From Rhizobium leguminosarum (lineage in GTDB: Bacteria; Pseudomonadota; Alphaproteobacteria; Rhizobiales; Rhizobiaceae), in the NCBI RefSeq assembly GCF_001679785.1, contig NZ_CP016286.1:310001-374000 (forward strand): a stretch of DNA of 64,000 nucleotides, given 5' to 3'. The notes beneath the pieces were generated by a model that made no database searches, was not told the DNA's origin, and saw nothing but the letters and a program-made list of their open reading frames with translations. A program made the translations under genes and the position numbers. This document shows, in pieces, positions 12,711 to 56,690 of this stretch (within the stretch, counting starts at the first letter, position 1; each line of letters starts with the position of its first letter).

Positions 12711-12745
12711 ACGGGCATCAATCCCCGACAAAGGAAGTTTCCGAC

Positions 12746-13831
12746 ATGGATATGGAAGACCTGAACGAGGCCGGCAACGGCAGCGAAGATTTTGGCGCGT
12801 TCGACGAGAAGCCCCTGAATGACAGGCCAGGCAGCATCCGCGACAGCCTGAAGGCGGCGATCGACACCGTCGAAGGCAGCGGACCGGGCGATATCGCCGG
12901 CCAGCCGCGCGACGGGGAAAACGGCCGTTTCCTGGCCAAGGGGCAGGAGCAAGCCGCAGCGGCGAGGGCAGGGCAGGCGTCCGCGGCAAACGCCGCTCAA
13001 CAACCGCCTCAAGCACAGACCGAGATGCAGACCCGTGAACAGCCCGCAACCATCGGCAGCCGGGTTCCGCCCGGCTGGTCGGCGGAAGCCAAGGCGCAAT
13101 TCGCAAGCCTTCCCGGTGAAGTGCAGGCAGCCATCACCAAGCGGGAACAGGAGGTCGATAACGGCTTTCGCGTCCTGCAGGATTACAAGGGGCTCGAGGA
13201 GTTCACGCCGCTCATCCGCCAGGCCGGCATGACCCATGCCGATGTCATGCGCCGGGCGATCGACTGGGAAAAGGCGCTCATCCGCGATCCCGTCAATACC
13301 GTCGTTCACGTCGCCAGGATGGCCGGGGTCAATCTTCATGCCCTGGTCAATGGCCAGACGGAACAGGTCCTGCAGCGGAGTTCGCAGCAGGCCGGACCAC
13401 AGCAAGGAGGGCCGCAGCCGCGACACGTCAACGTCGAGGCGACGGTCGAACATGTTTTGCGGAAAAGGGACACCGAAACTCAAGTCGATGCCTTCCTTTC
13501 CGACCCGGCAAACGCGCACGCCGATGACGTGCTGGACGATATGATCGCCCTTATCAACGCAGGGCGGGCATCATCGCTTCAGGACGCCTACGACGCCGCA
13601 TGCTGGATGCGCCCGGACATTCGCCAGCAGTTGATCAGCCAGACTGCGCAGGCACCCGTCCGAGAACAGCAAGCCCAGAGGGCAGCAGCGGCAGATCAAG
13701 CCCGCCGCGCCTCGCGATCCATCTCTGGATCTTCCGCACCGGGCCCGACCCGCGATGCGGCAAGAGGCCAGCCCACGTCCATCCGAGACTCGCTGCGCGA
13801 CGCCATGCGCTTTTCGCGCGGTCAAGTCTGA
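12746..13831 (+). CDS. Phage scaffolding-like protein
   Basis: This gene encodes a 361-residue, acidic, Gln/Ala-rich protein placed between portal and capsid genes, the usual position of a scaffold or capsid assembly protein. The start ATG 12746 follows AAAGGAAG. RIME-type sequence upstream shows that the open frame extending to 12380 is not coding. Two copies of the motif SIRDSL (GSIRDSLKAAID near residue 29 and TSIRDSLRDAMR at the C-terminus) bracket the protein. The middle, VPPGWSAEAKAQFASLP, is typical of this scaffold group. It probably guides capsid assembly and leaves afterwards. Confidence 0.7.
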   Translation: MDMEDLNEAGNGSEDFGAFDEKPLNDRPGSIRDSLKAAIDTVEGSGPGDIAGQPRDGENGRFLAKGQEQAAAARAGQASAANAAQQPPQAQTEMQTREQPATIGSRVPPGWSAEAKAQFASLPGEVQAAITKREQEVDNGFRVLQDYKGLEEFTPLIRQAGMTHADVMRRAIDWEKALIRDPVNTVVHVARMAGVNLHALVNGQTEQVLQRSSQQAGPQQGGPQPRHVNVEATVEHVLRKRDTETQVDAFLSDPANAHADDVLDDMIALINAGRASSLQDAYDAACWMRPDIRQQLISQTAQAPVREQQAQRAAAADQARRASRSISGSSAPGPTRDAARGQPTSIRDSLRDAMRFSRGQV

Positions 13832-13846
13832 TCGAAGGAATGATCA

Positions 13847-14821
13847 ATGCCCATCTCGCCCAACCTCTCTGAAATCGTGACCACGACGCTGCGCAACCGC
13901 AGCGGCACGGTCGCCGACGACGTGACGAAGAACAACGGCCTTCTCACCCGTCTGAACAGCCGCGGCCGCAAGAAGCCCATCTCCGGCGGCCGCACCATCG
14001 TCCAGGAACTGCAGTACCAGGAAAACTCGACCTTCAAGCGCTATTCCGGCTACGATATCCTGAACGTTCAGCCTTCTGACGTCATCACCGCTGCCGAATA
14101 CGATCTCAAGCAGGCGGCGGTCGCCGTCTCCATGTCGGGCCTCGAACAGCTGCAGAATTCCGGCGAGGATGCGATCCTCGACCTGCTCGAGCAGCGCATC
14201 GAAAACGCCGAAACGACGCTGAAGAACAACATCGCGCTCGACTGCTATTCCGATGGCACGGCCGATGGCGGGCGTCAGATCGGCGGGTTGCAGCTGTTGA
14301 TCTCGACCTCGCCGACATCAGGCACCGTCGGCGGCATCTCGCGCGCTACCTGGGGTTTCTGGCGCAACCAGAAATTCTCGGCCTCGGCCGATGGTGGTGC
14401 AGCCGCCTCGAACGCCAACATCCAGAGCTACATGAACCGGCTCTACATGTCCTGCGTTCGCGGCTCCGACGCACCTGATCTGGTCGTCGCCGACAACAAC
14501 TTCTTCCGCCTCTACTGGGAATCGCTGCAGGCGATCCAGCGCATCACCTCCGCGGACAAGGGCATGGCCGGCTTCCAGTCGCTGCAGTACATGGGCGCCG
14601 ACGTGATCTTCGACGGCGGCTTCGGCGGCGGTGCGCCTCTCAACCAGATGTTCTTCCTGAACACCAAGTACCTGTTCTACCGCCCGCACCGTGACCGCGA
14701 CATGGCGCCGATCGGCGACGAGCGCATGAACACCAACCAGGACGCCTTCGTGCAGCTCATGGGCTTCGCCGGCAACCTCACCATGAACAACGCCTTCCTG
14801 CAGGGCGTGTTGTTCGCCTGA
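13847..14821 (+). CDS. Phage major capsid protein
   Basis: This gene encodes a 324-residue protein with AAGGAA before its ATG. The position after a scaffold-like gene, the N-terminal SEIVTTTLRNRS, GRTIVQELQY and YSGYDILNVQPSDVITAAEYD, and the C-terminal RMNTNQDAFVQLMGFAGNL all match HK97-fold capsid proteins of podovirus-like rhizobial prophages. It should form the icosahedral shell. Codon use is that of a highly expressed gene (mostly C/G third positions). Confidence 0.88.
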   Translation: MPISPNLSEIVTTTLRNRSGTVADDVTKNNGLLTRLNSRGRKKPISGGRTIVQELQYQENSTFKRYSGYDILNVQPSDVITAAEYDLKQAAVAVSMSGLEQLQNSGEDAILDLLEQRIENAETTLKNNIALDCYSDGTADGGRQIGGLQLLISTSPTSGTVGGISRATWGFWRNQKFSASADGGAAASNANIQSYMNRLYMSCVRGSDAPDLVVADNNFFRLYWESLQAIQRITSADKGMAGFQSLQYMGADVIFDGGFGGGAPLNQMFFLNTKYLFYRPHRDRDMAPIGDERMNTNQDAFVQLMGFAGNLTMNNAFLQGVLFA

Positions 14822-14843
14822 TCGTCAACGAAAGGAAAAGCAA

Positions 14844-15629
14844 ATGTCGATCGCTTCAATCCAGTCCGATCGTCTTGGCGCGAACCCGTTCGTCGTCGAA
14901 GGCCCGATCGTCTCCGGCTCCGGTATTCCGGGCCCGAATTTCTCCCTCGGCGCTGTCGCCGGCGGGGACCGCGAATCCGAATGGGTCTATTGCCAGCTGG
15001 TGCTGGCCTCGCAGACGACCCTTCAGCCCGGCCAGTGGTTTCAGTGGACCCGGGATTATGTCGCCTCGCTGCTGACCACGGCGGCTGCCGTCGTCGGCCA
15101 GCGCTGCGGCGTCTTTTCGGGTGCCGCCCAGCCCCCGACACTGACCGGCGGTCCGGTCGGTGCCATCACGCTTGCACCGGGCACCTATTACATCTGGCTG
15201 CAGCGCAACGGTCAGGCGCCGTCTCAGGTGGCAACCGCAACGGCGGCCCTCGTCGTTGCCGAAACCACGACTACGGCAGGCCAGGCGAGCGCCCCGGCAT
15301 CGGCCACGGCAACCACCAAGGCCATCGCCAACGTCAACTTTGCGGCGGCCAACCAGACGTTCACCGCAACCACGGTCAACGGCTCCAACCTGCTGACGAG
15401 CCTTTCCGGTCTGAATGCCGGTTCCGGTCCGTTCATCGGTGCTGCCGTCTCCGGCACCGGCATATCAGGCGGAACCACCATCTCGGGCATCACCTACAGC
15501 CCGAGCGGCGTCGTGCAGAGCATCACGCTCTCAGCCAACGCCACCGCCAACGGCACGGGCATTACCATCACCGCAACGGGCGTGCTCGAGGCAACGCTGA
15601 TGCGTCCGTTCCTGTCGAAGGTGAACTAA
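14844..15629 (+). CDS. Phage structural protein, possibly capsid decoration
   Basis: This gene encodes a 261-residue protein directly after the capsid gene (AAAGGAAAA before ATG). The first 140 residues look like a compact beta domain (GPNFSLGAVAGGDRESEWVY, TLAPGTYYIWLQRNGQAPS). The rest is very rich in Thr, Ala, Gly and Ser, in an Ig-like pattern (ISGTGISGGTTISGITYS). Decoration or fibre proteins often sit here, but no firm family was recognised. Confidence 0.55.
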   Translation: MSIASIQSDRLGANPFVVEGPIVSGSGIPGPNFSLGAVAGGDRESEWVYCQLVLASQTTLQPGQWFQWTRDYVASLLTTAAAVVGQRCGVFSGAAQPPTLTGGPVGAITLAPGTYYIWLQRNGQAPSQVATATAALVVAETTTTAGQASAPASATATTKAIANVNFAAANQTFTATTVNGSNLLTSLSGLNAGSGPFIGAAVSGTGISGGTTISGITYSPSGVVQSITLSANATANGTGITITATGVLEATLMRPFLSKVN

Positions 15630-44246: not shown

Positions 44247-44782
44247 AGAGCTTTGAACCTTTCCCTGTCATTGACGCCGGCTACGATGCCAGGCGTTATT
44301 TTGCGGGAGAGCGCTCGGCCTGTGCCGAGGACCCACTCGATTGCGGGCAACCCTATCGCAACAAGTTCTATGGCTGTAGATCTCTGAAATACATAACATA
44401 ATGCCATTTTCTGGATAAATGGACACCAGCCCGGCCCGGATACAAATCGTTCGCCATCCATCGCGACGGCGCAAGTGTCGTTCTTGAAACCATTTCTCAT
44501 CAGACATCTCTTCGCCAATGGCGGCTCTGATGGACTAAAGCTGAGAGCTACATTGCAAAGTTCACCCTGCTGATCGTCAAATAAACCGATAAAGCCAAGG
44601 GTTTCGAAGTGCTGCCCGGTCGCCGCAAGATATTACTTTCATTGAATTCTTTTCGACTTAGGATCTTAGCCTGTCTGGCAGATGTATTAATCATTGTTAA
44701 GTACTGTTGAATATGGTTAATATTATGTTAACCTTAAAGAGATCAAGGGGCGTTCAGCGCTTTCAAAGCGGAAATTCGAAAC
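44247..44782. promoter_or_regulatory. AT-rich promoter region of the polysaccharide cluster
   Basis: A 536-base stretch contains no supported gene. From about 44630 it is AT-rich. An inverted repeat GGTTAA (44715-44720), seven-base spacer, TTAACC (44728-44733) lies about 50 bases before the exporter ATG, with another GTTAAG (44697-44702) nearby. It could be an operator. A leftward open frame at 44003-44518 overlaps the NmrA gene and is discarded. Confidence 0.45.
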
Positions 44783-46123
44783 ATGAAGCTTTCGAAGATA
44801 ATATCTCCAGCGAGGCCTCAATATAGGTCGAGAATCGGTTCTCGCCTACATCAAACAATACTGTGCATGGTGTTTGCAGCAATTGTTCCATTGGCGCCAG
44901 CAGCGGAAGAGTTACCTTCGCCTACGGAAGTGGTCTCGGTTGTGACCCCTGGTGAGACTTCGGCCCGGCAGCCTCAATTGTTGCGTGACGGTCTTCGCTC
45001 AGGCGATAAATTGAATCTCGCATTTTACGAAAGCTTGGCCTCCGTCGAAGATCGCTGGACGGGCTCGCGGGGTACGGTTCCCTGGAACTTTTACCAGCGC
45101 CCCGAGCTCACTGGCGAATACGTCGTTGAAGCGGACGGAACGATTGCGCTTCCGCTTTTGGGACGCTTTCCGGTTCGAGGGCTTCCTCCGGCGGATGTGG
45201 AGGCGATAATTCTTCCTTCGTACGAAAGTTTGGTCGGCAGAAAGGGGTTCGTGAATATCGTCAAGATTGAGCACCAGCCAATCTATATTACCGGCCCGGT
45301 TCGTAATCCTGGCTCGTTTCGATATGTTGATGGCATGACTGTTCTGCATGCCGTTGCGCAAGCGGGTGGCATGGCTGCGAAGAGTATCGAGCCATGGCAG
45401 AGCGTGGAAATTACACGCCAGATCGAGCGGTTGAAGGCTGGGCTGGCCGATCTGAAGCGGCTTGCGTCGCGAACCGAGGTGCTCAGGGCAAAGCGCGATT
45501 CCGTACAAATTGCCAGCATTGGCACGCTTGTTCTTGGTCCCGATCCCGACGCTCAAAGGTTGCTGGATGATGAGACATGGCAGCGCCAATTGGTAACGAC
45601 GAGCAAGGATGCGCAGAGCAGCGCTTACGCAAAATCTGTGGCCAATGCTCAGGCCGATCTCGATCTGCGTCAGGCACGCGTCGGTAATTATGATGCCACC
45701 ATTCGGGTCCGTCAGGATCGGCTGGCAAGTATCGAGAAATTGGCCAAAAACAAACTTGTCACCAGCATTGAGTTGACTCGGGCACAAAGCGAACTGACCG
45801 AATCGGAAGATCGAAAGCAGCAGGCCGTCATCGATGTCGAGAGCGCGAAGCAACGGCTGGCGGCAGCGAAACAGGACGTTGAGCGCGATCGTATCGAACG
45901 CGAGATCGAGATCGAAAAGTCGGCAGCGGATGCCGAAAGAGGCCTATCCACGGCGTTGAAGACGACCGAGAGCGATCTTGAAATTTTCCGGTCGATGGTA
46001 TCGTCGAATGATAGCGCCGGTGTTGAATTTGAAATCGTTCGGCCTGGACCGAATGGTGTCATCGTCGAACCTGCGACCGAAGAAACGGTCTTACAGCCAG
46101 GCGATCTGATCAAAGTACATTGA
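44783..46123 (+). CDS. ExoF-like polysaccharide export protein
   Basis: This gene encodes a 446-residue envelope protein. A hydrophobic segment (LHQTILCMVFAAIVPLAPAA) acts as signal near residues 24-43. The polysaccharide export domain (LRSGDKLNLAFYESL, GEYVVEADGTIALPLLGRFP) and a SLBB-like piece (QPIYITGPVRNPGSFRYVDG) follow. A long coiled coil (about 210-400) ends in a second export-like tail (ETVLQPGDLIKVH). This is the ExoF/OpnA layout of rhizobial exopolysaccharide exporters. No Wzc/ExoP copolymerase lies in the window. Confidence 0.85.
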   Translation: MKLSKIISPARPQYRSRIGSRLHQTILCMVFAAIVPLAPAAEELPSPTEVVSVVTPGETSARQPQLLRDGLRSGDKLNLAFYESLASVEDRWTGSRGTVPWNFYQRPELTGEYVVEADGTIALPLLGRFPVRGLPPADVEAIILPSYESLVGRKGFVNIVKIEHQPIYITGPVRNPGSFRYVDGMTVLHAVAQAGGMAAKSIEPWQSVEITRQIERLKAGLADLKRLASRTEVLRAKRDSVQIASIGTLVLGPDPDAQRLLDDETWQRQLVTTSKDAQSSAYAKSVANAQADLDLRQARVGNYDATIRVRQDRLASIEKLAKNKLVTSIELTRAQSELTESEDRKQQAVIDVESAKQRLAAAKQDVERDRIEREIEIEKSAADAERGLSTALKTTESDLEIFRSMVSSNDSAGVEFEIVRPGPNGVIVEPATEETVLQPGDLIKVH

Positions 46124-46240
46124 GGCTTAGCCGCATACTCTTCCCGACTGGGGAGAGTTTAGTCCTCCTCTCGGCCAAAGAGCTCAGGGGCATCGTCGAT
46201 TTGCGATTTGTCACGCGGTCCAAAAGGCCAAGGAGAGCTT

Positions 46241-47014
46241 ATGTCTACAATCGAAGCTTTAGAATCCTCGCATTCCTCAATGCCGGTCCAAGGTCCGATG
46301 TTCAAGTTGCCAAGGACCTCACTCGTCATTCCAACCTTGAACGAAGCGGAAAATATCAAGCTGCTTTTGCCCCGCATACCGACATGGGTGCATGAAATTA
46401 TCATCGTCGATGGGCGATCGACAGACGGAACGCCGGACATAGCGCGAAGCATGCGCGATGATGTCAAGATCGTACTTCAGCCTAAGAAGGGCAAAGGCAT
46501 CGCATTGCGGACGGGCTTCGAAGCCGCATCTGGCGATATGATCGTGATGCTTGATGCTGACGGGTCGATGGATCCCTACGAAATCATCCTGTTCGTCGCG
46601 GCTCTTGTTGCAGGTGCGGATTTCGTCAAGGGTTCGCGCTTTATGCAGGGTGGCGGCACCAGCGATATGACAGTCATCCGCCGTTTCGGCAATCTGGGCC
46701 TGACCCTCCTGGTCCGGATGCTCTATGGCAGCTCTTTCAGCGATCTGTGCTACGGCTACATGGGCTTTTGGAGACGGCATGTTCCCTTGCTGCGTGCCGA
46801 TTGCGACGGCTTCGAAATTGAGACGCTGATCAATTTGCGGGCCCTGAAGAACAAGCTCAAAATCATGGAAGTCGCGAGCTTTGAATCGGAGCGTATCTAC
46901 GGCGTCAGCAATCTGCGTGCCCTTCCGGACGGCTGGCGCGTGCTGAAGACGATCTTCCGAGAACGCGTCAGTACGCCGACGGGCGTCCAAGTCCTCGAGC
47001 AGGGCATGTCCTGA
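46241..47014 (+). CDS. Glycosyltransferase family 2 (dolichol-phosphate-mannose-synthase-like)
   Basis: This gene encodes 257 residues from ATG 46241 behind AAGGAGAGCTT. TSLVIPTLNEAENIKLLLPR, IIIVDGRSTDGTPDIARSMR and MIVMLDADGSMDP (the DxD metal site) are GT-A family 2 landmarks; CYGYMGFWRRHVPLL is the acceptor region. No C-terminal membrane domain is seen. It likely transfers a sugar from a nucleotide or a lipid-phosphate donor during repeat-unit assembly. Confidence 0.88.
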   Translation: MSTIEALESSHSSMPVQGPMFKLPRTSLVIPTLNEAENIKLLLPRIPTWVHEIIIVDGRSTDGTPDIARSMRDDVKIVLQPKKGKGIALRTGFEAASGDMIVMLDADGSMDPYEIILFVAALVAGADFVKGSRFMQGGGTSDMTVIRRFGNLGLTLLVRMLYGSSFSDLCYGYMGFWRRHVPLLRADCDGFEIETLINLRALKNKLKIMEVASFESERIYGVSNLRALPDGWRVLKTIFRERVSTPTGVQVLEQGMS

Positions 47015-47040
47015 GGTCCGGATGTAATTGGCGAGGCCGC

Positions 47041-48201
47041 ATGATGCGCATTTTGATGCTCAGCGCGAGATACCTGCCTTTTGCCGGAGGAACGGAAACC
47101 CATGTAAGCGAGGTCGCAATCCGGCTCGTGCGCAAGGGGCATACGGTGACGGTCTTGACGGGCAATCCCGACGGCCTTCTTCCGGCAGCGGAAACCCGAG
47201 ACGGCGTGGAGATTGTCAGGCTGAGGACGTTTCCCCGTGGGCGGGATTGGTGCTTCGCCCCCGGCGTCTTCAAGGCGGTCGCCGAAGGCGATTGGGACCT
47301 GATGCATGTTCAGGGCTACCACACCTTGCTGGCACCGCTGGGAATGGCCGCCGCATCGCGGAACGGGCTTCCTTTCGTGGTCACCTTTCACAGCGGGGGC
47401 CACTCGTCACGATTTCGGTCCTCGATCCGGCGCTTCCAACATAGAATGCTTGCGCCTCTGGCTGCCAGGGCAGCGCAACTCATTGGCGTGTCGCGATTCG
47501 AAGCGGATCTGTTCAGCCACAATATGGCAATCGCGAGAGACCGGTTCATCGTGATCCCAAATGGCGCGCGCCTTCCGGAAAAGTCCGGGCGGCGGCCGGC
47601 TTCACTTTGCAATGGGCCGCTGATTGTCTCGCTCGGCAGGCTGGAGCGCTACAAAGGTCATCATCGGGCGCTTGCTGCATTTCATGTGCTAGCAACAAAA
47701 TTCCCTGATATGCGCCTTCGGATCCTGGGAGAGGGGCCTTTTGAGGCGAAGCTGCGTCAGCAGGTGGCCGAGCTCGGGCTCGGCAACCGTGTCGAGATCG
47801 GGGCAATTCCGCCGACCGACCGGTCCGCAATGGCCGATCTTTTGTCTTCGGCCGCTCTTGTCGTGCTCCTCAGCGATTATGAAGCTCACCCCGTGGCGGT
47901 TATGGAGGCGCTTTCGGTCAAGGCTCCCGTACTGACCACCGACACATCCGGCTTTCGGGAGCTGGCTGAGGAGGGCCTCGTGCGATCCATTCCGCTCAAC
48001 GCTTCGCCAGACTTCACCGCGCGTGAAATGCTCGCCGCCATGGACGCGGGGCCGATCTCAATCGAGACGAGGTTGCCCGACTGGGACGATTGCACGGATC
48101 GGCTGCTGATGGTGTACAGACGCGTCCTTTCGCATCCGCAGGCCGAACTGCGAACCGGTCCGGCACTGCTTGGAGATTTGAAGCACGATGACCGTTGTTA
48201 A
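47041..48201 (+). CDS. Glycosyltransferase family 4
   Basis: This gene encodes a 386-residue GT-B enzyme. MRILMLSARYLPFAGGTETH is the N-terminal acceptor loop with the GGxE-type Gly pair. VFVIPNGA-like FIVIPNGARLP, PLIVSLGRLERYKGHHRALA and LVVLLSDYEAHPVAVMEALS (E-x7-E donor site region) are present. It adds a sugar with retention. It starts 26 bases behind the GT2 stop and its end overlaps the next gene by 14 bases. Confidence 0.9.
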   Translation: MMRILMLSARYLPFAGGTETHVSEVAIRLVRKGHTVTVLTGNPDGLLPAAETRDGVEIVRLRTFPRGRDWCFAPGVFKAVAEGDWDLMHVQGYHTLLAPLGMAAASRNGLPFVVTFHSGGHSSRFRSSIRRFQHRMLAPLAARAAQLIGVSRFEADLFSHNMAIARDRFIVIPNGARLPEKSGRRPASLCNGPLIVSLGRLERYKGHHRALAAFHVLATKFPDMRLRILGEGPFEAKLRQQVAELGLGNRVEIGAIPPTDRSAMADLLSSAALVVLLSDYEAHPVAVMEALSVKAPVLTTDTSGFRELAEEGLVRSIPLNASPDFTAREMLAAMDAGPISIETRLPDWDDCTDRLLMVYRRVLSHPQAELRTGPALLGDLKHDDRC

Positions 48202-50287
48202 GGGGCGGGCTTCTCCAGGCCGGCAGAAGGCCTACCAGGACGGAGCTTATCGTCATGGCTATCCAGGAAGGGTTACCATTCCACGCGTCGATCTGTGGAT
48301 CGCTGCATTTCTGGGCCTGCGCAAGCAGGACAGCGCGATCGGGGATGCTGCCGATCCTTCGTCGCTGGGGATGTCGCCGGTCTTTGCCTTCCTATGCAGC
48401 TGCGCCCTTATTGTGGCCGCTCTTGCTGCAAATGCCAGTCGGCTGGGAGAGGGCTGGGCGGTTCCGACGTTCTATTGCGCCATCGCCGCGATCTTTCTCC
48501 CCGCGGCGGCGCGGATCATCCATCCAGGGGCCAGCCGCCTGGAGCGCTTGGCGCTCATAATGATCGTGACCTCAGCCCTCTTCGTGGTGCGCCTCATCCG
48601 CGCACCCGTCGCCTTCATAGACCATGACGAATTCCTGCACTGGGCGACGGTGAACGACATTCTGGAGGCGGGGCGACTGTTCCTGCCCAATCCCCTTTTG
48701 CCGGTCAGCCCCCTCTATCCCGGGCTGGAGCTCATAACGTCCGCCTTGGTCAACCTGTCCGGACTGTCCGTCTTCGCGGCAGGCCTCATCGTATTGGCGG
48801 CCGCACGGATGATGCTGATGTGCGCGCTCTTCCTGCTCTTTGAGAAGATCACGGGCTCGGCACGGATCGCCTCCATCGCCTGCCTGATCTACATGGGCTC
48901 GTCCGCGTTTTTGCTGTTTGACGTCCACTACTCCTATGAAAGCCTGGCGATCCCCATGCTTGCGGCGGTGCTGTTGGCTTCGGAAAGCCGACGCATCGAG
49001 CGAAGCGACGCGGCAGGCTGGCCGACGGTCGTCGCCACCATGGTCCTGATCGTGGCTCTCGCGGCTACTCATCATCTCACCTCCTATTTTTGCACGGCCC
49101 TTTTGTGCGGCACGGCGGTGATGGAATGCCTGCGACAGGGCGCGTCCGCTATGCAGAGGCGGCAGGCGATCCTGCTGGCCTCGATCGCCGTGATTGCTCC
49201 GGTCGCCTGGTCGAAGATCGTCGGGAACCCCACCGGCAGCTACATCCTTCCCGTACTGGCAGGCGGCATACACGAGGTAGCGCAACTCCTATCGAACTCG
49301 ACCGCGACGCGTAAGCTTTTCGTGTCGGACACGGGAGCCTTGGCGCCTGCGTGGCAACGTTATCTGACGATGGCGGGCGTCGCGCTGATCTGCCTGGGAC
49401 TTCTCACCGGCTTTCTCCGCTCGCTCGTTTTCAATGGGCAGCACCCGAATGCGAGTATCCTCTGGCCGCCGACCAGATGGCGCCTATGGCGGTCAAGCCC
49501 TCTCGTCGTCCTCGTTTTGGTGACGCTGGCCTATCCTGTCAGCATCATCTTCCGCCTGACGCGCAGTGGGTGGGAGATCGGCAACCGCATCGGCTCGCTA
49601 TCTTTCCTCGGCGTCGCAATTGTCGTCGCGGTGGCCGTCGCGGCATTCTGGCACGGCACGTCGCGTGGCTGGCTGCGCGCAACGGCGCTTGCCGCCGCCG
49701 CAACGACGGTGCTGATTGGTGGCGTCATCAGCTCCGAGGGGCCGCGTATCCTGGTTCCGGCCGGCTATGAAGTTTCGGCCGACTCCTCGTCGATAGAACC
49801 GATGGGGATCAGCGCCGCAAAGTGGACCAGGGAATGGCTGGGCGGCGACCGGCATTTCGCAACCGACCGGATCAATCGCCTGCTCCTGTCCACCTACGGC
49901 CGGCAAAAGGTCTCGACCACGCTTGAGAGCGGGCAGGACACAGGCATGGCCATCACCGCTGCCGATCTCGGCTCGATGGAACGCAAGCTGCTGATCGGCT
50001 CGAGCGTTGGTTTCGTCATGGTCGATCTGCGCATGACCACTGGCCTGCCCGGCGTCGGCGTCTATTTCGACGGCGGCGCACAGGACCGAAACCACACGGT
50101 CCCCCTCCAGGCATCGTCGCTGCTCAAGTTCAATTCCGAGCCCGATGTCGACCGCACCTTCGACAACGGCTTCATGGTCATTTTCGATGTCGGGCGGCTC
50201 GGGAAAACAAGGCAGCCCGCCGTCCCTGGTAAGCGGACCGGAGAGCCGGTGCAATCCTTGGGACGAACAGACGGAGATTTGCAATGA
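48188..50287 (+). CDS. Large membrane protein, GT-C-like or polymerase
   Basis: This gene encodes 699 residues with roughly eleven hydrophobic segments up to about residue 530, then a soluble C-terminal part of about 160. A conserved acidic motif IDHDEFLHW (residues 144-152) lies in the first large outer loop, like the metal-binding loop of GT-C enzymes. HYSYESLAIPMLAAVLLASE and FRLTRSGWEIGNRIGSLSFL are further marks. It may transfer a lipid-linked sugar or act as the chain polymerase; no separate Wzy is seen in the cluster. Confidence 0.6.
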   Translation: MTVVKGRASPGRQKAYQDGAYRHGYPGRVTIPRVDLWIAAFLGLRKQDSAIGDAADPSSLGMSPVFAFLCSCALIVAALAANASRLGEGWAVPTFYCAIAAIFLPAAARIIHPGASRLERLALIMIVTSALFVVRLIRAPVAFIDHDEFLHWATVNDILEAGRLFLPNPLLPVSPLYPGLELITSALVNLSGLSVFAAGLIVLAAARMMLMCALFLLFEKITGSARIASIACLIYMGSSAFLLFDVHYSYESLAIPMLAAVLLASESRRIERSDAAGWPTVVATMVLIVALAATHHLTSYFCTALLCGTAVMECLRQGASAMQRRQAILLASIAVIAPVAWSKIVGNPTGSYILPVLAGGIHEVAQLLSNSTATRKLFVSDTGALAPAWQRYLTMAGVALICLGLLTGFLRSLVFNGQHPNASILWPPTRWRLWRSSPLVVLVLVTLAYPVSIIFRLTRSGWEIGNRIGSLSFLGVAIVVAVAVAAFWHGTSRGWLRATALAAAATTVLIGGVISSEGPRILVPAGYEVSADSSSIEPMGISAAKWTREWLGGDRHFATDRINRLLLSTYGRQKVSTTLESGQDTGMAITAADLGSMERKLLIGSSVGFVMVDLRMTTGLPGVGVYFDGGAQDRNHTVPLQASSLLKFNSEPDVDRTFDNGFMVIFDVGRLGKTRQPAVPGKRTGEPVQSLGRTDGDLQ

Positions 50288-51171
50288 TCGATAGCCGTAT
50301 CGACGCTTTCATGTGCGTCCATTCGCGGGACATCGAATATTTGCTCGAAGCGTCCCTTCGCTCCTACCAGCAGCATTTCCCCGACAAGGGAAACCTGACC
50401 ATGGTCACCGACAACCCGGCCGCTTTAAGAGCCTTCCTCGACGCGAAGGGTCTCGTGCCCGGCGCAGCCGTCACCGGCGACAACGACTGGCTTTCGGCAC
50501 GCGAACTGGAACTTCCCGGCTGGTTTCGGCAGCAGATCGTCAAGCTGCGCGCCTTCGAATTCTGCCGCACCGAGCATTTCTGTAATCTGGGTGCGGATAC
50601 GCTGCTGCTGCGGCCCATCGCGACGACCGATCTGATCGACCGGGGCGAACCGGTTCTCTATTATTCCAGCCACAGGTTGCCCGATCTGCATTACCGTTTC
50701 GAGAAGCAACGGTTGCGCAATGTTGCAAAGATCCTCGGCGTCGAGCCGGCTCGATCTTTTCGCTACGTCGATTTCATCAACGATTTCTTCTGCTTCAAGC
50801 GTGAATGGCTCATCGCGCTGAATGACTACATCGCGTCGAAATACGGCTCAAAACCCTACGTCGAGCTGCTCAACGGTCTCAGCGCGTCAAAAGACCAGAC
50901 ACGGTTCGGAGAATGGACACTCTATTCCGTCTTTCTGCTCGATGTGATGCACCTGTCGCCGACGATGCGCGATGCGCGCGGGGCCTATCTGACGCAGATC
51001 CATAGCCGTCTCGGCCTCACTCTGAGCCGGCTGGACAGCAAGATCGTTCATCTCGTCCAGAAATCCTTCGACCCCAACGTGATACGGCAGAAGCTCATGA
51101 AGGTGAACCCAGGCGCCGCGCAGATCATCGGCGCGACGGCATGGGTGGATGCAGGAGTTCGTCCCCGATGA
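50284..51171 (+). CDS. DUF6492-like putative glycosyltransferase
   Basis: This gene encodes 295 residues. IDAFMCVHSRDIEYLLEASL is a GT-A-like opening, WFRQQIVKLRAFEFCRTEHF and CNLGADTLLLRPI contain a donor-site-like D-TLLL, and INDFFCFKREWLIALNDYIA follows. The pattern is that of DUF6492 proteins, often placed in polysaccharide loci. It overlaps its neighbours on both sides by four bases (ATGA). A transferase role is likely but not shown. Confidence 0.7.
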   Translation: MIDSRIDAFMCVHSRDIEYLLEASLRSYQQHFPDKGNLTMVTDNPAALRAFLDAKGLVPGAAVTGDNDWLSARELELPGWFRQQIVKLRAFEFCRTEHFCNLGADTLLLRPIATTDLIDRGEPVLYYSSHRLPDLHYRFEKQRLRNVAKILGVEPARSFRYVDFINDFFCFKREWLIALNDYIASKYGSKPYVELLNGLSASKDQTRFGEWTLYSVFLLDVMHLSPTMRDARGAYLTQIHSRLGLTLSRLDSKIVHLVQKSFDPNVIRQKLMKVNPGAAQIIGATAWVDAGVRPR

Positions 51172-51995
51172 TGGCCCGTCGTGTCTTTCTGGGAATCATT
51201 CCGCTGTGGGTTCTTGCCGCTGCCTTGGCCGTAACGTGGCTGCCCGAAACCTTCTCGACCTGGGAGAAGGTGGTCCGCCTGGCGCTCTGCGCGCCACTGA
51301 TATTGTATTTCCCTGGCTGCATGCTGGTGGACACCCTGCGCATCGAGGGCGACACAGTCACAAGGGGGACGTTCGCGGTGTTCCTGAGCTTCGCGACCTG
51401 CATTTTTTGCGGCCTTCTGCTGCATGTCGCCGGGCATCTCGATGCGCGAGGCTGGGTATACGCGTTGGGCCTGACGACTATTGCCGTTCGGTGGCTGAAT
51501 GTCGTTTTGCAGCTCGCAAGGCCGGTTCCAGCCATTCCCTGGGCCTGGCCCGGCCGCCGTTTTGGGGCATTCGCAGTTTCCATGATCTTGGCGACGAGTT
51601 CCGTCCTCATGGCGCGCCCGGTCGCGCTTGAACACAAGCCGTTTCAGTTCACTGAGCTTTGGATGGTGCCCAAATGGACCTGGACGAACAATGTGGTAAC
51701 GGTCGGCGTGCGCAATTCGGAAGACGCCAGGACGCTTTACAGTCTTGACCTTGTTCTGGGCGGCACATTGATTGGAAAGATGCCAGCCTTCGAACTGGCG
51801 CCTTCCTCCAGTCAAACCTTCGAATTCTCCATACCGACAAAAACGCACCCTCCCGCACGGCTGGAAGCCTGGCTCTACAAGGGCGGCGACAGGGGAACGA
51901 TCTACCGCAAGGTCTGGATGACCATCGACGCGCTCCAGTCGCCGGCACCGACCGGAATAACCCTTCAGTTCGCCCCGGAGCTGAAGAATGGATAA
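51168..51995 (+). CDS. Membrane protein with DUF1616-like N-terminus
   Basis: This gene encodes 275 residues from ATG 51168 overlapping the upstream stop. Four hydrophobic segments (FLGIIPLWVLAAALAVTWLP and following) end near 150, then a soluble beta-rich domain (WTWTNNVVTVGVRNSEDART, SLDLVLGGTLIGKMPAFELA) lies outside. The layout, four helices followed by an Ig-like domain, resembles DUF1616 proteins of archaeal and bacterial glycan loci. It may assist assembly; no activity is known to me. Confidence 0.55.
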   Translation: MMARRVFLGIIPLWVLAAALAVTWLPETFSTWEKVVRLALCAPLILYFPGCMLVDTLRIEGDTVTRGTFAVFLSFATCIFCGLLLHVAGHLDARGWVYALGLTTIAVRWLNVVLQLARPVPAIPWAWPGRRFGAFAVSMILATSSVLMARPVALEHKPFQFTELWMVPKWTWTNNVVTVGVRNSEDARTLYSLDLVLGGTLIGKMPAFELAPSSSQTFEFSIPTKTHPPARLEAWLYKGGDRGTIYRKVWMTIDALQSPAPTGITLQFAPELKNG

Positions 51996-52989
51996 TTTCC
52001 AGCACCCCTTACCCGGCAGGCTCACGACGGCAATCGTCATCTGCTGCTATTCCGACAAGCGCTGGGACATTCTCAATAAGGCAATCGAGGCGGCAGCGCG
52101 CCAGGTCCCGGCCGCGGACGAGATCGTTGTTATCGTCGATCACAATCCGGCACTCGCGCTGCGTCTGCGCGCCAAGCGCTTCGAAACCCCGCTCAGCATC
52201 GTCGAGAATATTCATTCGCCCGGCCTCTCCGGTGCCCGCAACACCGGGATTTCTGTCAGCTGCGGCGAGGTCATCCTGTTTCTCGACGACGACGCCGTGG
52301 CGGATCAAGATTTGCTGGCGACCTTGGTGCGGCAACTCGAGGATCCCTCGGTTCTGGGCGCCGTATCCGCCATCCGCCCCTTGTGGGAAACAGACCGTCC
52401 GTCCTGGTTTCCCGACGAATTCCTGTGGACCCTCGGCTGCACCTATCGCGGCCTTCATCCGGGGGCGGTGCGCAACCTCATCGGCGCGTCGATGTGCATC
52501 CGCCGCTCCGTCTTCGATCATACGGGCGGCTTCGATTCCGGCTTGGGCCGAACGGCCAAGGCTTTGCCGCTCGGATGCGAGGAAACCGAACTCTGCATCC
52601 GTGCAACCAAGGCCTTGCCGCATGGCCGTTTCGTCTTCGAGCCATCGAGCGGCAGCGATCACGCCATACCCGCCGATCGCGCAACGTGGAAGTATTTCCT
52701 CCACCGCTGCTGGGCCGAAGGGCTTTCAAAGGCCAGCCTCTCGTTGATGGCGGGCTCCGGCGAGGCGCTGGCGTCGGAAAAGACCTATGTGACCAGGACG
52801 CTGCCGCAAGGGGTTATGCGGGGATTCGCCGATGTGCTGCTTGGCCAGCCGAGCGGCCTTCTTCGGGCCGTCGCGCTGGGCGCCGGCCTGGCGGCCACTG
52901 TGGCCGGCTTCGCTCTCGGCCGGACCCGCGCTGCCCTTACGCGACCGTTCACCTCCGTTCCTGCTCGCGCTCTCGAACCGGTGGAATAG
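51988..52989 (+). CDS. Glycosyltransferase family 2
   Basis: This gene encodes 333 residues. TTAIVICCYSDKRWDILNKA, DEIVVIVDHNPALALRLRAK, NIHSPGLSGARNTGISVSCG and VILFLDDDAVADQDLLATLV (DxD site) are GT2 landmarks; GCEETELCIRATKALPHGRF is the acceptor region with ED-like base. A C-terminal hydrophobic segment (LRAVALGAGLAATVAGFALG) anchors it to the membrane. It overlaps the upstream stop by eight bases. Confidence 0.9.
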   Translation: MDNFQHPLPGRLTTAIVICCYSDKRWDILNKAIEAAARQVPAADEIVVIVDHNPALALRLRAKRFETPLSIVENIHSPGLSGARNTGISVSCGEVILFLDDDAVADQDLLATLVRQLEDPSVLGAVSAIRPLWETDRPSWFPDEFLWTLGCTYRGLHPGAVRNLIGASMCIRRSVFDHTGGFDSGLGRTAKALPLGCEETELCIRATKALPHGRFVFEPSSGSDHAIPADRATWKYFLHRCWAEGLSKASLSLMAGSGEALASEKTYVTRTLPQGVMRGFADVLLGQPSGLLRAVALGAGLAATVAGFALGRTRAALTRPFTSVPARALEPVE

Positions 52990-52991
52990 GC

Positions 52992-54371
52992 ATGATGACC
53001 CTCAGCGCCGCCATGACTAAGGTCCGCAGCCTCCTGATCAATCAGGCGGTTTTGCTCCTCAATGCAGGCATGCTGGGGCTTGGAACGTTGATGACGGCCG
53101 TTCTCGGCTTCGTCTACTGGTGGTTCGCGGCGCGTTCCTTCTCGGCCGAGGCTGTCGGGCTCGCCGCCGCCGCCATATCGTTGATGAATCTCCTCGCGAA
53201 TCTCGGGGAAGTCGGTCTCGGGCCCTTCCTGATGGGCGAGATAGGCCGTCAGAAAAGAGCGGGCCCCTTTCTGACGGGCGCCCTCCTGGCCTCGTTCAGC
53301 GCCTCCATCATGGTGGGGCTGATCTATCTTGCTATCGCAGCCCGGACATCGACGCAGCTTGGCTCGATCGTCGGTTCCTCAGCGACCGATCTCTTCTTCG
53401 TCGGTGCTTGCGCTCTGACGGCCGTGACCCTCGTGCTCGACCAAGCCCTTGTTGGCCTTCTGCGCAGCGGCCTTCAACTGGCCCGAAATGTTGTCTTTGC
53501 CGCCAGCAAGCTTCTTCTGTTGGTCGCTCTCGGCCTGACACTAGGCCGGGCGAGCAGCGAACTGGCGATCTTCACCACCTGGTTTACCGGCCAGCTTGTC
53601 TCGCTGGTCGTCGTGGCCGGGCTTCTTGTTTATGCCGGTGGGCACGTTTTCCACCGGCCGGAGATCCGCGCCTTCCGCCCGGTGCTCGGACAGGTTTTCG
53701 GCCATCATACGCTCAGCATGGCTGTTCAGGCGCCGGCGCTGCTGCTGCCCTTCGTCGTCACGGTGATGCTGTCCGCTGAGATCAACGCCGCCTTCTATGC
53801 CGCCTGGACGGTGCTGAACGTCGCGCTTCTCGTCCCTGCGTCACTCGCCTCGGTGTTGTTTGCCATCGCTGTTCGGGAGCCGGAGCTATTTCCCGCGCGC
53901 CTGCGCCTGTCGCTCGGCTTGTCGATGCTGGTTTGCGCGGCGACCGCCTTGGCGTTCCTCTTCCTGTCGCGCTTCATGCTCTGGATATTCAATCCGGCCT
54001 ATGCTGTGATTGCAGGAAATAGTCTCCAGTTTCTGGGCGTTGCCGCTTTCGGAATGGCGTTGAAGTATCATTATCTGGCGGTTCAACGTGTCCGGCGGCG
54101 CCTGGGTTTTGCTACGCTCGTTCTGACCGGCGGTGCGGTGCTGGAGATCGCGGCCGCCGTCGGTGGTGCGCAATTCGGGATCGCCGGCACTGCCAACTTC
54201 TGGGTCATTGCTGTTCTTCTGGAAGGCCTCCTTCTGTGCCCGGCATTGTATTGGGCCGCGCGGCGCACTGCGACGCCGTCCGCCACCGCGCCATCAGCGG
54301 CTGCCGGCGTCTCGACATACGGCAATGTCCTCGACAAGGCAGACCAAATCGGAATTGCGTCACGGGCTTGA
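52992..54371 (+). CDS. Wzx-like polysaccharide flippase
   Basis: This gene encodes 459 residues from ATG 52992, two bases behind the GT2 stop. About twelve hydrophobic segments are seen. LLLNAGMLGLGTLMTAVLGF, VYWWFAARSFSAEAVGLAAA and AISLMNLLANLGEVGLGPFL form the standard N-terminus of MATE/Wzx-type lipid-linked oligosaccharide flippases. It should move the finished repeat unit to the periplasm. The open frame upstream of the start lies in another frame of the GT2 gene. Confidence 0.85.
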   Translation: MMTLSAAMTKVRSLLINQAVLLLNAGMLGLGTLMTAVLGFVYWWFAARSFSAEAVGLAAAAISLMNLLANLGEVGLGPFLMGEIGRQKRAGPFLTGALLASFSASIMVGLIYLAIAARTSTQLGSIVGSSATDLFFVGACALTAVTLVLDQALVGLLRSGLQLARNVVFAASKLLLLVALGLTLGRASSELAIFTTWFTGQLVSLVVVAGLLVYAGGHVFHRPEIRAFRPVLGQVFGHHTLSMAVQAPALLLPFVVTVMLSAEINAAFYAAWTVLNVALLVPASLASVLFAIAVREPELFPARLRLSLGLSMLVCAATALAFLFLSRFMLWIFNPAYAVIAGNSLQFLGVAAFGMALKYHYLAVQRVRRRLGFATLVLTGGAVLEIAAAVGGAQFGIAGTANFWVIAVLLEGLLLCPALYWAARRTATPSATAPSAAAGVSTYGNVLDKADQIGIASRA

Positions 54372-54387
54372 AAGGGAGTTTCTTCGC

Positions 54388-55569
54388 ATGAGGCCTATTC
54401 ACCATTTCCGGAATTTCGCTGTCGGCGCTGCGGCGGTGGCGCTTTTTTGGTCTGCTCAAGTCGGATCTGCGGACGCGCAGTCATCTCCGCAGCAATCTTT
54501 CGTCACGACGAAAGAGGGGGGCTTCCTGCTGGACGGCAAGCCATTTCGCGTGGCCGGCGTCAACAACCATTATCTGACATTTGGCTCGTCAGGCGAAGTC
54601 ACGCGCGTGTTGGACGATGCCACGGCAATGGGTGCCAATGTGGTGCGCACCTTCCTGCAACCGGTTATAGGGTCGCTGGACGGCCGGGTGCCGACGATCT
54701 GGAATTCAAAAAGCACGGCCGATTCCAGCAATCTGGGAACCAAGGGCATCTACATGATGAGTTGGGATCCGATAACCAACAAGATGGTTCCCAACGACGG
54801 ACCTGACGGCTTGCAAAAGGTCGATTACCTCATCGCGGAAGCGGCGAAGCGCAAGCTTAAGCTGATCCTCGCATTCGTCGATTTCTGGGCCTATACGGGC
54901 GGTGCCCAGCAGATGAATGCCTGGTACGGGAGTTCGGACAAATACACCTTTTTTGCCGCTGATCCGCGAACCCGACGCGATTACAAGGCATGGGTCGGGC
55001 ATGTTCTGTCGCGCGTCAACACGATTACTGGTGTGCGCTATTCCGATGACCCCACCATATTTGCCTGGGATCTGGCCAATGAACCTGACATCCATCCCAA
55101 ACCGCTCCTTCATGACTGGGTGTCGGAAATGTCAGCCTATGTCAAATCCCTGGCACCGAAACAGCTCGTCACGACGGGCCATGGGAACATGGAACAGAAG
55201 CTGGCGGATATGAACATTCCGAGCGTCGATTTCGGCACGTGGCATGGCTACCCATCCTACGTCAAAATGAGCCATTCCGATTTTGACGCCCGCATTCGCG
55301 AATACTGCGCGATCGCACGAAATATCGGAAAACCGGTGATCCTGGAGGAATTTGGAGTTCCCCGATCCGATCCCGATCAGGCAAATGCCTATGAAACTTG
55401 GCTGAACACGATCGCCACGTCGGATTGCGGAGGCTGGGTGGTCTGGCGGCTCACCAGCACGCAGGACTCGGGCCTCTATCCTGAGGACGACCACGACAAA
55501 TTCGATATCCATAACGATGGAGGCGCTGCTTGGCAGGCTCTGCGCGCCGCCGCCCTCAAGTTTCAATAA
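54388..55569 (+). CDS. Secreted GH5 glycoside hydrolase
   Basis: This gene encodes 393 residues from ATG 54388 behind AAAGGGAG. A signal peptide (GAAAVALFWSAQVGSADA) ends near residue 31. The GH5 barrel shows ANVVRTFLQPVIGSLDGR, IFAWDLANEPDIHP with acid/base Glu 232, TWHGYPSYV, and PVILEEFGVPRSDP with nucleophile Glu 321. The closest pattern is endo-beta-1,4-mannanase. In the cluster it probably trims or releases the polymer, as ExoK-type glycanases do for other rhizobial polysaccharides. Confidence 0.88.
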   Translation: MRPIHHFRNFAVGAAAVALFWSAQVGSADAQSSPQQSFVTTKEGGFLLDGKPFRVAGVNNHYLTFGSSGEVTRVLDDATAMGANVVRTFLQPVIGSLDGRVPTIWNSKSTADSSNLGTKGIYMMSWDPITNKMVPNDGPDGLQKVDYLIAEAAKRKLKLILAFVDFWAYTGGAQQMNAWYGSSDKYTFFAADPRTRRDYKAWVGHVLSRVNTITGVRYSDDPTIFAWDLANEPDIHPKPLLHDWVSEMSAYVKSLAPKQLVTTGHGNMEQKLADMNIPSVDFGTWHGYPSYVKMSHSDFDARIREYCAIARNIGKPVILEEFGVPRSDPDQANAYETWLNTIATSDCGGWVVWRLTSTQDSGLYPEDDHDKFDIHNDGGAAWQALRAAALKFQ

Positions 55570-56019
55570 TCAGGGCCACCGGAGCCATTCCGCCGTTCAG
55601 CATTCGTCGTCTTGAGCGATGGATCGGGTACGACATCGGGTGTTGCCATTCGATTTGATGGCTGCCAACAACATGTGGCATATCGCTTGAAGGCGGAAAC
55701 CGATTTCAAGAAGAAAACATACGTGACACGACGATCGGAAGCGCGCCCGCGAACCGGGATGGTTGCGCGAACGAACAAATGACAGCGATCTCAACACGCC
55801 AGAGTATTGACCTAAATGCTTCCATATTTTCTTGCGATCTAAACTGGGTCTCTAGCTTCGCCAAATATTCGCGGTATATCCAGGATATCGGGGACAAGTT
55901 GGAGATTTTCGAAGGTCAACAGTTGGCAATATGAATAATGCGGACGGCTCGCTCCCAGAAGCGGTATCGTATATTGACTCATCATCGGGCTATCCCGATT
56001 CGAAAGAGGGATTCCGGCA
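55570..56019. other. Spacer after the polysaccharide cluster
   Basis: These 450 bases hold several short leftward open frames without ribosome binding sites or family likeness. No clear terminator was seen behind the GH5 stop. A promoter for the next gene is expected near the right end. Confidence 0.4.
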
Positions 56020-56523
56020 GTGAACTCTTCACGCTTTCTCCAATCAATCGTCGAAGCCGAGTCCCATGATACACGCTTGAATTTCGCCCGCGCCGCGATT
56101 TTTCAGCTTTATAGTGCTTGCCTGCCAACCGGTTCTGCGCCGGCTCAGTTTTCCGTCGAACTCACTCTATCTGAAGAAGAAGCGGTCACGCTTGTCGTAC
56201 GGCCGTTCGTCAATAAGGTGGAAGCACTTGGCGGGCTTGTGAAATCCCTGTTTTCGACAAACGCGGAAACCGTACTGCGAGCCCTGCCATGCAGGGTGGA
56301 GGATAAGCTTGGATCCGGCATTGGATTGATACTTTTCGTCGACGACGAGCCGATGATTACCATCGGATCTCTCGCGGATAACAGCGGACTGTTTCTCCGC
56401 CAGATAGAGCCCGCATCCGGGAATACTCCCGGGGTTGCCACAATCGGTACGGTGGTAGGCCAACGACTTGCCAGTGTGGTTCCTATTCCGACTGGATCTC
56501 TCCATCTGCGTAAGCCGAAATAA
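56020..56523 (+). CDS. Hypothetical protein, 167 residues
   Basis: The frame from GTG 56020 encodes MNSSRFLQSIVEAESHDTRL, then ARAAIFQLYSACLPTGSAPA and later GIGLILFVDDEPMITIGSLA. It is a mixed alpha/beta protein without signal or membrane segment. The start codon is preceded by only a weak AGAGGG nine or more bases away. No family was recognised. It stands alone between the glycan cluster and a broken oxidoreductase. Confidence 0.55.
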   Translation: MNSSRFLQSIVEAESHDTRLNFARAAIFQLYSACLPTGSAPAQFSVELTLSEEEAVTLVVRPFVNKVEALGGLVKSLFSTNAETVLRALPCRVEDKLGSGIGLILFVDDEPMITIGSLADNSGLFLRQIEPASGNTPGVATIGTVVGQRLASVVPIPTGSLHLRKPK

Positions 56524-56537
56524 CGGGCTCTGACCGA

Positions 56538-56690
56538 TCAAGGTATCAGCAGGATACTGCCCGCCGAGCGTCGAGATTCCATCTCTTCGTGCACCTTCGC
56601 AACATCGGCCAAACGATATTCAGCACCGATCTGCGAAACGGGTGTGAGGCAAGGATGACCGGTGCTCGATCTCTGCCGAATCACATCACT
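56538..56690 (-). pseudogene. Zinc-type quinone oxidoreductase, C-terminal remnant
   Basis: The leftward frame ends in AEYRLADVAKVHEEMESRRS, then AGSILLIP, the standard C-terminus of quinone oxidoreductases (YPLADA-AH-DLE-R-T-GK-VL-P). No start or the rest of the enzyme is present; upstream runs into the penicillin-binding protein gene in another frame. It is a short relic. Confidence 0.65.

Follow-up and report, generated by a model that had tools for sequence, protein, structure and literature searches.

The mobile Pss-III gene block of Rhizobium leguminosarum and a possible GT-C-dependent route of surface-polysaccharide assembly

The DNA analyzed here, referred to as the window, is a stretch of 64,000 nucleotides from Rhizobium leguminosarum (C1:310001-374000, where C1 is a 5.0-Mb contig of an 8.57-Mb genome). 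Its list of open reading frames (ORFs) contains a cluster of nine genes, designated A to I, at positions 44783-55569. All nine are on the + strand, as an earlier note made from the sequence alone had described. Four of the eight junctions overlap (C/D, D/E, E/F and F/G) and the remaining four are gaps of 2 to 84 bases; the gap before B becomes 117 bases if the B start annotated in R. johnstonii 3841 is used. Blastn comparison of positions 40001-62000 with plasmid pRL11 of strain 3841 revealed homology at 44625-56524 (94.8% identity), which stops on both sides. The right end of this block is the stop codon of a further gene, J (56020..56523, + strand), which encodes 167 aa without a credible Pfam match. 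The genetic unit is ten genes, A-J, in one block; the tenth gene and the block boundaries had both been missed by the earlier note. J accompanies the nine genes in the Rhizobium loci discussed below, but none was detected at the loci of Agrobacterium, Hyphomicrobium or Chloroflexi. The window has no tRNA and gave no Rfam match at gathering score, and no integrase was seen among the Pfam matches of A-J.

The proposed classes of A, B, C, E, G and I were backed by Pfam and NCBIfam, and the view of the cluster as an exopolysaccharide-type assembly locus is supported. A (44783..46123) encodes an ExoF-like outer-membrane polysaccharide exporter (OPX) of 446 aa with Poly_export (1.1e-9) and SLBB (4.7e-9) domains; it matches Wza in the PDB (2.8e-8) and has an HlyD-like stretch (NCBIfam type_I_hlyD model, 1.7e-7 at 209-391). 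B (46208..47014; the 3841-annotated start corresponds to 46241) is a family 2 glycosyltransferase (GT2) of the polyprenyl-phosphate sugar synthase type. Its nearest NCBIfam model is AglJ (TIGR04182; 6.7e-36, 124.2 bits, the cut-off of 325 not being reached), and its nearest PDB match is dolichol monophosphate mannose synthase (2.3e-17), with undecaprenyl phosphate sugar transferases also near. C (47041..48201) is a GT4 enzyme (Glyco_transf_4, 6.9e-27; Glycos_transf_1, 2.2e-24). The second GT2, G (51988..52989; Glycos_transf_2, 1.1e-15), is nearest to GtaseAglG_Halo at 157.7 bits (next model 63; cut-off of 440 not reached). Since B and G stay under these equivalog cut-offs, we do not call them AglJ or AglG. 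H (52992..54371) was thought to be a Wzx-type flippase; the annotation of its counterpart in R. leguminosarum bv. trifolii TA1 as an oligosaccharide flippase agrees with this, but its Pfam score is below cut-off (0.89 for Polysacc_synt; the Chloroflexi homologue gives 2e-5 and 24.6 bits against a cut-off of 28.2 bits).

The earlier note had considered that the gene order matched no described locus, and this was not borne out. Primers for pssM of the Pss-III region, located on pRleTA1b of strain TA1, are given with a 440-bp product in the available text of one study (PMC3123555). Both match the window with 0 mismatches, at 52237 (+) and 52658 (-), and bound a 440-bp marker inside G (52237..52676, + strand). 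Plasmid pRltTA1B of TA1 has these nine genes, in this order, together with J, and so does pRL11 of 3841 (RL_RS31730 to RL_RS31770), where the 167-aa gene follows them. The exact primer match, the span of 440 bp and the gene order in TA1 and 3841 therefore identify the cluster as the Pss-III region, catalogued earlier, with G holding the pssM marker. The copy studied here lies on the 5.0-Mb contig, whereas that of TA1 is on a pRL11-type plasmid. The original description of the TA1 region is reportedly that of Krol et al. (2007). The whole order thus matches a described locus in the sense of a catalogued one, but the accessible portions of the papers assign Pss-III no function; one calls it a plasmid-borne region of unknown function (PMC5748678). 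Beyond the name, the literature, as far as its text was accessible, was not found to describe the boundaries of the locus, its relatives, its GT-C component or the link to mannanases.

Searches with D, the gene between C and E, outlined the distribution of the block. Of 61 relatives, four contain D, three of them among the 37 same-genus genomes (own genome included). The alignment search located it in 6 of 397 order-level genomes, where short weak matches in G228 and G421 were dropped, and in one of 385 class-level genomes, which is the own genome. A genome-contig search gave 15 loci, and 19 plasmid records contained D, 18 of them from Rhizobium and one from Mesorhizobium; these sets overlap, with L024/G026, L033/G011 and L032/G037 coinciding. 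Identity of the cluster genes to their counterparts in nine Rhizobium loci is 89-99%; these loci belong to named members of the R. leguminosarum complex or to Rhizobium sp. Conserved co-occurrence, which the earlier note had proposed to search for, was observed: all nine genes are kept in order in 10 of the 15 loci (nine from Rhizobium and one from Agrobacterium larrymoorei). Four Hyphomicrobium loci have eight genes, E being absent. A Chloroflexi metagenome-assembled genome (MAG; L035) has B, C, D, F, G and H in altered order, with OPX not detected. Locus L044 contains A, B, C, D, F, G and H with C relocated, L045 contains D, F, G, H and I on a contig that ends at D, and the Mesorhizobium plasmid (L046) lacks only E and carries A, G and I on the opposite strand.

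The cluster is under purifying selection. Ratios of nonsynonymous to synonymous substitution (dN/dS, Nei-Gojobori) were 0.04-0.31 for the ten genes in three within-Rhizobium comparisons (with L022, L027 and L033). Against L034, nine genes gave 0.08 to 0.25, a rough ratio at dS of 0.8 to 1.6. A chance or decaying array was rejected in view of the conservation and these ratios.

The block moves, as it sits either on the chromosome or on pRL11-type replicons. On the chromosome it is flanked by an NmrA-like gene on one side and a penicillin-binding-protein gene on the other (window 44460-56530), with no evident repeat noted. The site beside the NmrA-like gene was compared in seven other genomes. 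Four of them (L049-L052) lack the block, and no more than about 110 bases separate the left flank from the penicillin-binding-protein flank. Two more (L048 and L053) have the left flank and then, within about 80 bases, only a short match to 56530-56640, so that the site is probably empty there as well; in the seventh (L054) the right flank was not seen. L048 belongs to genome G011, which carries the block on a different contig. The empty sites and the presence of the block on various replicons agree with published locations of pssM: in the text available, 19 strains have it on the chromosome and four on chromid-like replicons, and strain K3.22 lacks it (PMC3123555).

A hint at the product comes from I (54394..55569), a mannanase-like hydrolase of glycoside hydrolase family 5 (GH5; Cellulase PF00150, 6e-14, 52.6 bits, cut-off 23.5), which likely carries a signal peptide, as judged by eye. 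All 16 of its PDB sequence matches at E <= 0.001 are mannanases, mannosidases or Man5A (1uuq), the best at 5.7e-46, in support of the mannan hint that the earlier note had drawn from this gene. A pair of Glu residues, presumably the expected GH5 catalytic pair, is kept in 8 of 8 homologues (NE by pattern in seven, NE by alignment in Mesorhizobium; the second Glu in all eight). Among the nine non-Rhizobium loci seven have a GH5 gene, one has a GH113 gene and one has neither in the stretch covered. The GH113 protein (2.7e-61) adjoins H in the Chloroflexi locus, where GH5 was not found, and its best PDB matches are endo-beta-1,4-mannanases. Genes for phosphomannomutase and mannose-1-phosphate guanylyltransferase lie near the Mesorhizobium locus. 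The hydrolase likeness and the mannose genes near relatives point to mannose, and the sequences suggest a polymer that contains it, possibly with glucose as well. R. leguminosarum glucomannan is a mannose-containing surface polymer of the same species group; its gene gmsA has a chromosomal-style tag (RL1661) and, on the text available, lies outside the Pss-III cluster (PMC11406972). The enzyme could instead act on plant mannans and say nothing of the cluster's own polymer, as it looks secreted, its best solved relatives are mannanases and plant-associated bacteria are among the carriers. We consider this unlikely: GH5 stands at the same cluster end in all four Hyphomicrobium loci, and the mannanase-like protein adjoining the Chloroflexi locus is of the unrelated GH113 family.

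D (48188..50287) encodes a membrane protein of 699 aa. Neither D nor its family had a Pfam or NCBIfam match, and its sequence profile gave no solved structure at E <= 1. The GT-C likeness proposed earlier for D is supported by structure models, which place it in the GT-C fold with oligosaccharyltransferases as the nearest relatives and AglB near. Foldseek with the first model listed WaaL (7tpg_B) in 17th place (E 0.26); for the second model WaaL was not among the 50 matches listed. A Wzy/WaaL-type fold was not favoured by the ranks, which do not exclude such folds; unrelated transporters appear in the two lists from rank 11 and rank 5, with low probability. An outer loop contains the motif F-x-x-[HY]-D-x-x-[LI]-H-W (48614..48643, + strand; D residues 143-152). 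Its Asp147 is invariant in 15 of 15 aligned rows and is an acidic residue in the first outer loop, the position of the catalytic acidic residue in the GT-C_A class. An oligosaccharyltransferase-like D might transfer the glycan to protein or lipid, and the product would then be a glycoconjugate and not a free polysaccharide. This is improbable, since the cluster has the OPX exporter A, except in the Chloroflexi MAG and in L045, whose contig ends at D, and a common fold does not reveal the acceptor.

Two genes, E and F, follow D. E (50284..51171) is a DUF6492 protein (1.7e-12) found only in the Rhizobium and Agrobacterium versions, and had no credible match among solved structures (best 0.079, a helicase). 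F (51168..51995, from the 3841-annotated start; a longer ORF begins at 51141) is a membrane protein loosely related to DUF1616, located directly after D, or after E, in the relatives compared. Of 10 aligned members of the F family 6 match DUF1616 (E <= 0.01, best 7e-17), but the window copy alone reaches only 0.15.

The known R. leguminosarum Wzx/Wzy exopolysaccharide (EPS) loci, Pss-I and Pss-II, have an OPX exporter, glycosyltransferases and, with H as the putative counterpart, a Wzx-type flippase in common with Pss-III. In the text available they also have a co-polymerase and Wzx/Wzy parts (PMC4182512, PMC5748678), whereas none were found in the Pss-III block. We searched 11 genomes for PF02397 (phosphoglycosyltransferase, PGT), PF04932 (Wzy_C) and PF02706 (Wzz) and placed D in the same genomes. 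In the available contigs of all 11 no match to these families was found within 15 kb of D; in G246 and G813 the contig ends within that distance on one side, which is thus partly covered, and a divergent Wzy would escape PF04932. The nearest matches were 18-29 kb from D in G037, 57 to 62 kb in G811 and G812, about 450 kb in the own genome (G000) and >400 kb in G026. In the other six genomes none of the three families is on the contig of D. As far as these families reach, the earlier statement that the cluster has no PGT, Wzy or polysaccharide co-polymerase is confirmed, and the block therefore moves without bringing along a polymerase that can be recognised. An ABC-transporter-dependent route was rejected, as the Pfam matches of A-J include no ABC domain. 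In the own genome one PF02397 match (G000:C1:4740040-4740602) is split into two adjacent parts that lie in different open frames; the gene may be broken.

These data could also be explained by a Wzx/Wzy-dependent pathway that takes its PGT, polymerase and co-polymerase from other loci, with B and D only adding a periplasmic side sugar from polyprenyl-phosphate-hexose. GtrB/GtrC and ArnC/ArnT are the pairs to compare, and ArnC and ArnT are indeed among the relatives of B (PDB match) and D (Foldseek and fold comparison), respectively. All 11 genomes have matches to the three families elsewhere, and in the table of one review, as available, GT-C_A families use lipid-phosphate monosaccharides except GT66 (PMC10920833). 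Against such an explanation stands the lack of these genes within 15 kb of D in genomes from different families; moreover, each new host would need a repeat-unit-specific Wzy, which is an argument and not a test. We regard this possibility as nearly as likely as D being the polymerase.

Our preferred explanation is that Pss-III is a mobile surface-polysaccharide pathway, the product of which probably contains beta-linked mannose, and that the GT-C protein D replaces Wzy in it. This is tentative, and we assign a probability of roughly 0.4 to the pathway as a whole. Its enzymatic steps, carrier, sugars and polymerase are what we infer from the observed gene content, order, homology and conservation and from the fold resemblance of D. 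B would attach a hexose to its carrier, polyprenyl monophosphate. Further sugars would be added in the cytoplasm by C and G, and perhaps by E where it occurs (Rhizobium and Agrobacterium), and H would flip the lipid-linked glycan. D, with F as a putative membrane partner, would act at the periplasmic face of the inner membrane, stand in for Wzy and transfer the lipid-linked sugar or glycan to the growing chain, which A would take across the outer membrane and I may trim or release. We count in its favour that A-I, wholly or all but one, have stayed in one cluster in Rhizobium, Agrobacterium, Hyphomicrobium and Mesorhizobium. Polymerases of repeat units are usually specific, and no other candidate was found in the block that moves, which argues for D as the polymerase, again by reasoning and not by measurement.

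Several observations weigh against this pathway. OPX exporters are normally partnered by a co-polymerase and none is in the block, and the PGT, Wzy_C and Wzz matches present elsewhere in every genome searched come as close as those of G037. The models of D have a mean pLDDT (predicted local distance difference test) of 57 and 65, with loop regions under 50, and none of their Foldseek matches reaches E 0.001. Both B and G remain under the AglJ/AglG cut-offs. Concerning the sugar, L044 has no GH5 match in 19.5 kb, the Chloroflexi GH113 gene is on the opposite strand, and the neighbourhood of the Mesorhizobium locus holds a GH16 beta-glucanase-like gene in addition to mannan genes. Bacterial repeat-unit polymerases fall outside the GT-C_A table in the part of the review available (PMC10920833). 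Finally, the amount of EPS showed no significant change when TA1 had lost its Pss-III plasmid, according to the accessible text (PMC4185100).

The pathway proposed for Pss-III resembles archaeal N-glycosylation by AglJ, AglG and AglB, as B and G are nearest to the AglJ and AglG models and the fold of D is near AglB. A precedent for a polyprenyl-phosphate sugar in EPS synthesis is AepG, a GT2 similar to dolichol phosphate mannose synthase, which, in the text available, makes dolichol phosphate-GlcA (glucuronic acid) for an archaeal EPS (PMC9943897). The systems differ in the sub-cut-off scores of B and G, in the OPX and GH5 genes of Pss-III and perhaps in the acceptor, which is a protein in N-glycosylation. 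It is doubtful, if conceivable, that Pss-III and its relatives form a separate route of this kind, with AglJ-like priming of repeat units on polyprenyl monophosphate and, beyond the membrane, a GT-C_A polymerase of oligosaccharyltransferase fold with a DUF1616 partner, without PGT, Wzy and Wzc.

Within the R. leguminosarum complex Pss-III moves from replicon to replicon, and distant bacteria share most of it; it has a name, but the literature, so far as accessible, does not give its product. The evidence, models included, suggests a testable product class (mannose-containing) and a candidate non-Wzy GT-C polymerase, and the block, for which natural empty sites exist, offers a clean genetic unit. 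Should D indeed polymerise lipid-linked units, there would have to be an exception to the rule by which all bacterial polymerases of repeat units belong to Wzy.

A literature search, with supplements and most subscription papers outside it, did not find tags of the pRL11038x/pRL11039x or RL_RS3173-3176 series; pRL110374 does occur. pRL110400 is a Leu/Ile/Val-binding protein, which we take to be the product of the ABC substrate-binding gene that follows J in 3841; if so, the old tags of the cluster should lie just below pRL110400. Some relatives contain additional genes. In L030, the one Hyphomicrobium locus scanned for them, an extra GT4 and a GINT1-like protein (L030:13798-15381, GINT1_N 6.1e-28) are between F and G, and among the shared genes of the Chloroflexi locus are a second large membrane protein, a protein resembling type I phosphodiesterases and one that is unassigned (L035:7634-9598 and 12725-14865). 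In three of the 18 Rhizobium plasmid records (CP140818.1, CP050557.1 and CP050563.1) D matches in two pieces, which may reflect a broken gene or an error in the sequence.

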